A stretch of 64,000 nucleotides of DNA from Streptococcus sp. DD12 (GTDB lineage Bacteria > Bacillota > Bacilli > Lactobacillales > Streptococcaceae), in the NCBI RefSeq assembly GCF_001578885.1, contig NZ_KQ969495.1, positions 789,123 to 853,122 of the forward strand. The letters run 5' to 3'. Under the pieces are notes generated by a model. It saw only the letters and a list, made by a program, of their open reading frames with translations, was not told where the DNA came from and searched no databases. The position numbers were made by a program, and so were the translations under genes. Positions 16,596 through 19,819 of the stretch are shown here, in pieces (within the stretch, counting starts at the first letter, position 1; every line of letters begins with the position of its first letter).

Positions 16596-17504
16596 TTAGT
16601 TCTCTAATAATTCAGAAAGGTAGCCTTCTTTCAACATGTTCAAATTAAAAATATTTTGAATATGTCCAAATGCTTCAGATAGAGGCAGGTGCGCTGTTTT
16701 CCACCCTTGACCATCAGTCACCCAAACAAATTCAATAGCGTCATTTGATGTAGTAACAAATTGACTAAGTTCTGTAAATTCGCCAGCAACAGCTTTTAAC
16801 TTGCTACCGCCTCCACCGTAGTAATTCGTTTCAATTAGCCAAACTTTATGTTTCTCTTTTGAGTACACAGCGACATCAAATCTTCTTTCGGACTTATCAA
16901 CAGGAACGTCAATATTCCAATTCTCTTTAATGAATAGAGCAGTGGCTTGAGCTTTCCATTCCAATCCCAACTCATTTGCTAATTTAGCAACATGACGTTC
17001 TAAAATACCTTCCATAGTTGTTCCACTTCGATTTTTTCGGGCGTTGCTATCTAATCCTGCCTCTACACCATAAACATAGTCAACTAAAGAACGATTAGCC
17101 TTATTTTGCAAAAAATCAAGCAAACCCGACTGTTCTATAAAATCAAGGTAATCTTGTATTCGAGTACTATCGATTTTTTTAAAGCTAAGTTGTTCAAAAT
17201 CCATATTATCATAATCATCGACTATGAGAATATCAAGAACCTTCTCTCTACTGGCTATTAAACTCGGAATTGCTCTCAGTAATTCTGGTTGCTTCGAGAA
17301 TAAGTTTTGAGCTTCGTCACGAATATTTTCTTTGCCAATTAAATAATTGAGGGTATTTAATTCAAGTTCGTATTCCTTCGTCTTACTTTCCACTTTTTCC
17401 CAATTCACATAGTATTCTGGAGTACGATTAGTTACAGACAATGAAGTTAAAAATATATCTAATCTCTCTCTAGATGTCTTTATTGCATAATCATTTAAGT
17501 TCAT
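16596..17504 (-). CDS. DpnII/MboI-family type II restriction endonuclease (GATC)
   Basis: 302 residues. The order of conserved blocks matches DpnII and MboI: LNTLNYLIGKENI near 50, SLVDYVYGVEAGLDSNARKNRSG (short form LVDYVYGVEAGLD) near 140, and the nuclease core RRFDVAVYS with WLIETNYYGGGGSKL, followed by FVWVTDGQGWKTA. The Asp and the Glu of ETN fit a PD-(D/E)XK-type centre. It is the last gene of a four-gene GATC system; its ATG overlaps the stop of the extended reading frame upstream. The island is AT-rich compared with its neighbours, as in known horizontally acquired DpnII-type systems of streptococci. Confidence 0.9.
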   Translation of the reverse strand: MNLNDYAIKTSRERLDIFLTSLSVTNRTPEYYVNWEKVESKTKEYELELNTLNYLIGKENIRDEAQNLFSKQPELLRAIPSLIASREKVLDILIVDDYDNMDFEQLSFKKIDSTRIQDYLDFIEQSGLLDFLQNKANRSLVDYVYGVEAGLDSNARKNRSGTTMEGILERHVAKLANELGLEWKAQATALFIKENWNIDVPVDKSERRFDVAVYSKEKHKVWLIETNYYGGGGSKLKAVAGEFTELSQFVTTSNDAIEFVWVTDGQGWKTAHLPLSEAFGHIQNIFNLNMLKEGYLSELLEN

Positions 17505-18114
17505 TTCTTATTCTCCTCTAACGGCAACGGCAAACCTATAGCATCTAGTGGAATATAATTAAAATAATATTTACACCCAACACTAATGATATAATCTAAA
17601 ACATCTTTATATCTTGGTTGTTTGAATCAAGCTTTATCCAATAAATAGCAATAGAAAACTTCTTTATTCAGAGGAGAGAAAAGTTTTTTGTACTGTTTCA
17701 ACTTAAAGTCGCAAGTTTGCAATTTTTCATCCACACTTCCACCGTCACTTTGAGTTTTCTTTTCCACAATATAAACTGTATTTTTATTAATTACAAATAT
17801 CGCCTCATCAGGTAATAGTTTAGCTGATACAATTTTTGTATAATCATAGCCATCAATTTCGTCAAAATAACGATAAAGCCCTTCCTTTTGGAAAATTTGT
17901 CCAACTTCCTCATCTAAAAAACTAATTCTCCAACGAAGAGGTTTTGTTCTGAGTTTAGTACCTTTAACAATTTCGCCAGTTTTTCTCCTTATTGTATTGT
18001 AATCAATGTTTTCAATACGGTATCCTGACTGCTTACCTAAAAATGTCGGGAAATCTGTTTTTAATTCAAATTCCAAACCTGTTTTAGTATTTGCCCCACC
18101 AACACTACCTTTAA

Positions 18115-18118
<4 letters not shown>
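17501..18118 (-). pseudogene. Second restriction nuclease-like gene interrupted by an in-frame TGA
   Basis: The frame starts at 18118, overlapping the dpnA stop by 4 bases, and reads 163 residues to a TGA at 17627-17629. Beyond that TGA the same frame stays open for 41 codons (FKQPRYKDVLDYIISVGC and on) and ends in a TGA at 17501 that overlaps the next ATG in the compact ATGA fashion used throughout this operon. So the natural product was probably about 205 residues and the internal stop is a nonsense change, possibly from TGG. The GGANTKTGLEFE start and the PDEAIF ... IVEKKTQ ... GSVDEKLQT region look like a PD-(D/E)XK nuclease. It is not of the DpnII fold. Its specificity is unknown. Confidence 0.75.

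Positions 18119-19819
<1,701 letters not shown>

Follow-up and report, generated by a model that had tools for sequence, protein, structure and literature searches.

An in-frame TGA at a conserved tryptophan codon of a short predicted endonuclease gene in a DpnII/LlaDCHI-type locus of Streptococcus sp. DD12

Introduction

SsuDAT1I of Streptococcus suis reportedly consists of two methylase genes followed by two endonuclease genes, with overlapping genes and a last endonuclease of the LlaDCHI type. We take its first endonuclease, SsuRA, to be of the DpnII type. LlaDCHI is said to have no second endonuclease, unlike the locus described here, and it presumably shares with DpnII the methylases and a PF04556 endonuclease, as the family names also suggest. 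PMC5198162 names SsuDAT1I as a Type II system, PMC4190342 places LlaDCHI of Lactococcus lactis among the lactococcal GATC systems, and PMC3573125 presents DpnII of S. pneumoniae as a GATC system and gives the roles of DpnM, DpnA and DpnB.

Here, we describe a related locus of Streptococcus sp. DD12. The window analyzed was a stretch of 64,000 nucleotides (assembly GCF_001578885.1, contig NZ_KQ969495.1, positions 789,123 to 853,122), in which the first of two endonuclease genes contains an in-frame stop codon.

Results

Organization of the locus

Four minus-strand genes with overlapping ends were found in the window in the order MA, MB, RA and RB (Table 1). A Dam-type methylase, a DpnA-type methylase and a PF04556 endonuclease are present together, which constitutes the DpnII/LlaDCHI-type gene set, and two endonuclease genes (RA, predicted and broken, and RB) follow the two methylase genes, as in the SsuDAT1I type. 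The start of MA was set at the ATG at 19756, within a longer open reading frame that opens with TTG; the start of MB in its relatives matches a later ATG at 18912. No internal stops were found in MA or RB. RB, which is presumably of the LlaDCHI type, has its own ribosome-binding-site-like stretch (AGAGGAG) 8 bases before the ATG, so its translation need not depend on that of RA.

The G+C content was 31–38% in the locus and 40–51% on either flank. The adjoining rRNA methyltransferase gene was recovered in 19 of the 20 relatives searched. The CBS/ACT gene was not seen in these 19 loci within the up to approximately 1.5 kb checked per side, so an empty insertion site could not be shown. The competence box TACGAATA occurred at 30 sites of the window with at most one mismatch, compared with 29.5 expected, and at none at the MB start. 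By sequence, neither RA nor RB matched any PDB entry at E values up to 1.

Table 1. Positions and assignments of the genes and sites of the locus in the window.
Feature	Position	Strand	Assignment
MA	18902–19756	-	Dam-type adenine methyltransferase, DpnM-like; PF02086 1.4e-74; TIGR00571 dam 3.6e-87, over cut-off
MB	18115–18966	-	DpnA-type adenine methyltransferase; PF01555 7.2e-67; 75–90% identity to relatives
RA, truncated ORF	17627–18118	-	Predicted short endonuclease, 163 aa; whole gene 17501–18118
Predicted PD...ExK catalytic motif of RA	17756–17812	-	P103, D104, E119, K121; invariant columns of alignments A1 and A2
In-frame TGA, RA residue 164	17627–17629	-	Trp in each of the 8 class-A relatives compared with it
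RA continuation past the TGA	17501–17626	-	41 conserved codons and native stop overlapping the RB start
RB	16596–17504	-	Presumed LlaDCHI-type endonuclease, 302 aa; PF04556 DpnII 4.9e-89; PADLOC REase_II 1e-127

The in-frame TGA and the tail of RA

Read from 18118 to 17501, RA encodes 163 residues ending in LLDKA, the in-frame TGA and a further 41 residues beginning with FKQPRY. Its native stop, the TGA at 17501–17503, overlaps the RB ATG at 17502–17504, and the MB stop overlaps the RA start at 18115–18118 in the same style. The sequence-only reading, which had described 41 codons running from the TGA to a terminal TGA overlapping the next ATG, with a junction like those of other genes of the island, was borne out on both points, and the in-frame stop in RA is confirmed. 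In comparisons with five intact relatives, the stretch past the stop aligned in the same frame at 39–40 of its 41 codons with 82–90% amino-acid identity, so the tail is not a product of chance. RA is the sole copy found in its genome assembly, and the observation of the stop comes from one assembly (11 contigs, 99.3% complete) of one genome of the species.

Tryptophan at the stop position in relatives

Relatives of RA were present in 11 of 284 streptococcal genomes, comprising 8 close ones (class A, window counted) and 3 distant ones (class B). Wider samples gave 5 relatives outside Streptococcus in 395 genomes of the order and 1 in 398 genomes of the phylum; five of these six were open over 196–213 residues, and one (G526) was broken. 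The class-A relatives, which occur in streptococci and Carnobacterium, were aligned over 196–207 amino acids.

We used two alignments, A1 with 10 rows and A2 with 15 rows other than that of the window, four proteins being common to both. The stop column of A1 contained Trp in all seven other class-A rows and Phe in the three class-B rows, and that of A2 contained Trp in 12 of the 15 other rows and Phe in 3. A scan of genome contigs with the 163 residues of RA gave relatives in S. acidominimus, S. cuniculi, S. infantis, Carnobacterium maltaromaticum and S. peroris. Each of the five encodes Trp at the position of the stop; four copies are intact (202–207 residues), whereas that of S. peroris carries a frameshift ahead of the Trp column. 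The change of a Trp codon to TGA, which had been proposed from the sequence with an alignment of intact homologs as its check, agrees with these results, since the eight other class-A relatives (seven intact and one frameshifted) all carry Trp at this position.

Homologs that naturally end at the stop position were sought, and none was found. The 15 other rows of A2 and the 10 other rows of A1 extend 25 to 40 residues past the stop column, the lowest value (25, L116) being set by a contig end, and no other row of either alignment has a stop at the TGA column of RA. A relative in N. gonorrhoeae was considered as a natural short end and rejected: its frame is open to eight codons past the Trp, and the conserved end lies in another frame. 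We regard it as a broken copy because of this displaced end and because the preceding methylase gene has an internal stop, a reading based on viewing one of the two Neisseria records. The pair (L112:2197-4456) consists of this DpnA-type methylase gene and the frameshifted RA relative, and the gene upstream of it looks like the dam-replacing gene drg.

Age of the stop and search for recoding

The pN values of RA against five relatives were 0.073–0.145 before the stop and 0.032–0.111 after it, with pS values of 0.53–0.91. Against S. acidominimus, pN was 0.073 before and 0.032 after the stop, with pS above 0.5. Because dS was saturated, dN/dS values were left unused, and only pN and pS were considered. 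Private changes at columns that six relatives keep invariant number 4 in the window RA, the stop being one of them and none lying after it, and 1 to 8 in the relatives; relaxed selection was not seen in this comparison. RA appears to have been under purifying selection on both sides of the stop until recently. Because the substitution patterns are alike before and after the stop, either the stop arose recently or the tail continues to be used; both predict an equal pattern, and from the substitutions we infer a recent mutation as the simpler of the two.

No SelB was found over the cut-off in the genome (best 186.6 bits, cut-off 242.25; assembly 99.3% complete), and RF2 is present. In a tRNA list covering 24 places, which contig-end tRNA clusters suggest to be incomplete, CCA was the only tRNA-Trp anticodon seen and no UCA anticodon occurred. 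The TGA is followed by T, whereas C is the usual next base in leaky contexts. The checks of SelB and of tRNA anticodons thus gave no recoding machinery for this TGA.

Motif, predicted fold and context of the RA family

The residues P103, D104, E119 and K121 are invariant in A2, correspond to a PD...(D/E)xK motif and precede the stop. The family conserves P103-D104, E119-x-K121 and a GSVDEKLQT stretch. The 163-residue RA gave no match in Pfam, NCBIfam or PADLOC at E 0.001. The intact S. cuniculi RA (class A) stayed under the Pfam cut-offs, with 14.4 bits for PDDEXK_11 (PF20472) against a cut-off of 23.7, whereas the class-B relative L088 scored 24.4 bits, just above it. Neither RA nor the S. 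cuniculi relative matched PF04556, whereas the first endonuclease of the G058 locus did. Profile A1 against the PDB gave four chance-level rows. Phage records gave no match at E 1e-5, and PHROGs gave one weak match for the S. cuniculi protein (E 0.0043), to a function-unknown family. In a literature search, neither the short RA family nor the junction of MB and RB was the topic of any title among the matches listed.

The intact RA of S. cuniculi was modelled with AlphaFold2 from 16 rows (pLDDT 87, pTM 0.83). Its best fold matches were BstEII (Z 8.3) and BsoBI (Z 8.2), followed by Bse634I, PspGI and MunI, mixed with other nucleases; the best Foldseek E value was 3.4e-3, with none at 0.001 or better. 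The model gives moderate support to a resemblance of the RA family to the PD-(D/E)XK fold. The modelled tail contains a helix (168–179), a strand (183–186) and a short helix (191–194). Alignments of several restriction enzymes to the model end at residues 196–200, past the stop, as judged from the first and last aligned residues only; those of BstEII and BsoBI reach residue 196, and those of the restriction enzymes listed above end at 196–198 and thus seem to include the tail elements. Folding of the 163-residue RA without an alignment gave a pLDDT of 33, which is meaningless.

On one Lactiplantibacillus and one Leuconostoc plasmid, the gene immediately before an RA relative encodes a Dam-type methylase, and no further endonuclease is annotated alongside (three of eight plasmid-collection matches were viewed, the third being from Neisseria). 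The Leuconostoc plasmid (L114) also carries, by eye, a remnant after the nuclease gene that resembles the class-C proteins described below. Of 14 viral loci, 12 were scanned; a methylase ORF of the MA or MB type was near the RA relative in 9 and absent in 3, and in three of the 9 (L123, L124 and L127) the methylase was recognized by a weak 69-residue match only. A PF04556-like RB relative was also present in 4 of the 12. From its methylase neighbors and its predicted fold, the RA family would be a GATC endonuclease.

Contents of the junction between MB and RB

MB was present in 31 of 284 streptococcal genomes (E ≤ 1e-60) and PF04556 in 34, three of which lack MB and hold a piece of RB only (G231, G280 and G056). 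A single PF04556 endonuclease, 34–37% identical to RB, follows in 9 of the 31 MB loci, and the other 22 have an RB-type gene at least 73% identical to that of the window. We surveyed the slot between MB and RB in the window and in 21 streptococcal loci within L079–L109. The occupants in these 22 loci were a class-A RA (8), a class-B RA (3), a DpnII-family endonuclease (1, G058), a class-C protein of 177 residues (2), a class-D protein of 267–279 residues (4) and, by eye, a shrunken class-D remnant (1, G210); 3 loci had nothing. The G058 locus, with its DpnII-family first endonuclease, presumably represents the SsuDAT1I arrangement. The class-C and class-D proteins tested had no Pfam match above the cut-off and no PADLOC match.

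At the DNA level, MB is 98.7% and RB 90.7% shared between G201 (RA) and G091 (class D), and the corresponding values for G154 (RA) and G205 (class D) are 97.5% and 88.4%. Because MB is near-identical across unlike occupants, the occupant would have been exchanged within a kept frame, or the flanks recombine around it.

Class-C slot proteins of approximately 177–182 residues are found at L085:2637-3170, in L097 and at L122:3413-3961, and the L085 protein had no match in Pfam, PADLOC or PHROGs. In the phage contig L122, the class-C-like protein (by eye) has both an RA relative and a complete MA-MB-R set as neighbors, an arrangement that hints at where the slot cassettes come from. Class-D slot proteins of 267–279 residues are found at L091:2613-3452 and L095:2558-3361, with no family match above the cut-off; in L095, the class-D gene is followed by a 59-residue zinc-ribbon-like ORF.

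Breaks in the genes of related loci

A gene was counted as broken if its matched stretch contained a stop or a frameshift. Such breaks occurred in 2 of 8 class-A RA genes (window and S. peroris), 0 of 3 class-B RA genes, 1 of 22 RB genes (G210), 1 of 31 MB genes (G197) and 0 of 31 MA genes. G231, G280 and G056, which lack MB and hold just part of RB, were excluded beforehand, and a stop inside the RA of G029 turned out to be a natural end and was left out. The difference between class-A RA and RB (2/8 vs 1/22) was not significant (p = 0.17), nor was that between all filled slots, with the G210 remnant uncounted, and RB (2/18 vs 1/22, p = 0.58). The broken RA relatives outside the streptococci were those of G526 (two stops) and N. 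gonorrhoeae (frameshift).

Other damaged loci were observed. In G210 (L102), codon 156 of RB, which lies in a conserved stretch, is an in-frame TGA, and nothing but the class-D remnant occupies the slot; both endonuclease genes look broken there, beside methylase genes that contain no stops. In G280 (L110) and G056 (L111), the first approximately 45 residues of MA and the last approximately 60 of RB are all that is left; the two genomes carry comparable scars from deletion of the entire system. In G197 (L098), MB has an RB-like stretch of approximately 42 residues and internal stops, as if MB and RB had recombined.

Discussion

With a probability of approximately 0.78, we consider RA to be a second, short PD-(D/E)XK endonuclease gene of a GATC locus that was struck by a single recent nonsense mutation at a Trp codon, with a product that is likely inactive and a locus that still methylates and restricts through MA, MB and RB. 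The mutation would have shortened RA to 163 of 205 residues. The truncated protein would keep its active-site motif and would lose the last helices and strand of the predicted fold, and because of this loss it is most likely inactive; judged from the model, it is probably dead despite the motif. GATC methylation and restriction would continue through MA, MB and RB, with GATC as the presumed specificity of both the locus and RA and with restriction presumably resting on RB. Points against this explanation are that a single genome stands for the species, which leaves room for a base-calling error or a change confined to one culture, that the tail has no decay yet, that the fold matches are moderate and that the nuclease role of the RA family is a prediction.

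The absence of decay bears on the alternatives as well. A tail conserved like the rest, with no private change at conserved columns, and a single assembly in 11 contigs would also be expected if the TGA stemmed from faulty assembly or base calling, or had arisen in the sequenced culture alone, with RA intact in the natural population. No stop occurs in MA, MB or RB of the window, however, and the independent breaks in relatives (the S. peroris frameshift and the G526 stops) make a real break plausible. We still give an error, or a change that arose in the one culture, a small but real chance. The sequence-only reading had raised the idea that readthrough keeps activity low, and near-cognate tRNA-Trp could in principle decode the TGA, yielding a little full-length RA and a low level of restriction. 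The kept frame and low pN after the stop fit this idea, but a stop that arose recently would leave an equally well-kept tail. RF2 without SelB over the cut-off, the lack of a UCA anticodon among the incompletely listed tRNAs, the T rather than C after the TGA and the confinement of the stop to the window row of A1 and A2 all argue against readthrough; the idea found no support, and we regard it as the least probable of the alternatives.

The 163-residue product might instead have a function of its own, such as weak nuclease activity, nicking or cooperation with RB, and its predicted catalytic motif precedes the stop. Against this, all 15 other A2 rows have at least 25 tail residues, the modelled tail of the intact relative holds two helices and a strand, and the alignments to several restriction enzymes, known by their first and last aligned residues only, end beyond the truncation. 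A functional short protein is thus very unlikely, marginally less so than readthrough. A recent inactivating nonsense mutation remains the preferred reading.

It had also been noted from the sequence that the nuclease is truncated while its partner is intact, as if redundancy allowed decay. The first part held: RA is cut by the TGA, and RB and both methylase genes are free of stops. Redundancy fits and is a fair idea of the reason for the decay of RA, but an excess of breaks was not shown statistically (2/8 vs 1/22), and the RB of G210 itself has a nonsense codon.

The stop in RA is in itself an ordinary loss-of-function mutation in a redundant-looking endonuclease gene. It points to a short nuclease family that is poorly covered by the libraries searched and that, on some plasmids, looks like the sole endonuclease accompanying a Dam-type methylase and, elsewhere, like the second one. 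The exchangeable second-gene slot is the more interesting result and deserves follow-up. We tentatively suggest, as a reading with somewhat less than even odds, that the MB–RB junction is a slot in which second defence genes of several families are swapped between streptococci with the flanks kept, and are inactivated by single mutations as well, the window representing an occupant just after its switch-off. A slot with fast content turnover would offer a test of why a restriction system carries two enzymes for one site.

In the DpnII system, as in the window locus, a PF04556 endonuclease comes after a Dam-type and a DpnA-type methylase, but DpnII has one endonuclease only. RB is 34–37% identical to the endonucleases of the nine streptococcal loci that carry a single, DpnII-like enzyme, a range that applies to the nine as a set. 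SsuDAT1I is the closest known system to the window locus. Both have two methylases and two endonucleases, the last of the LlaDCHI type, on the SsuDAT1I side reportedly so, whereas the first endonuclease of the window belongs to another, shorter family with no Pfam match over the cut-off and is broken.
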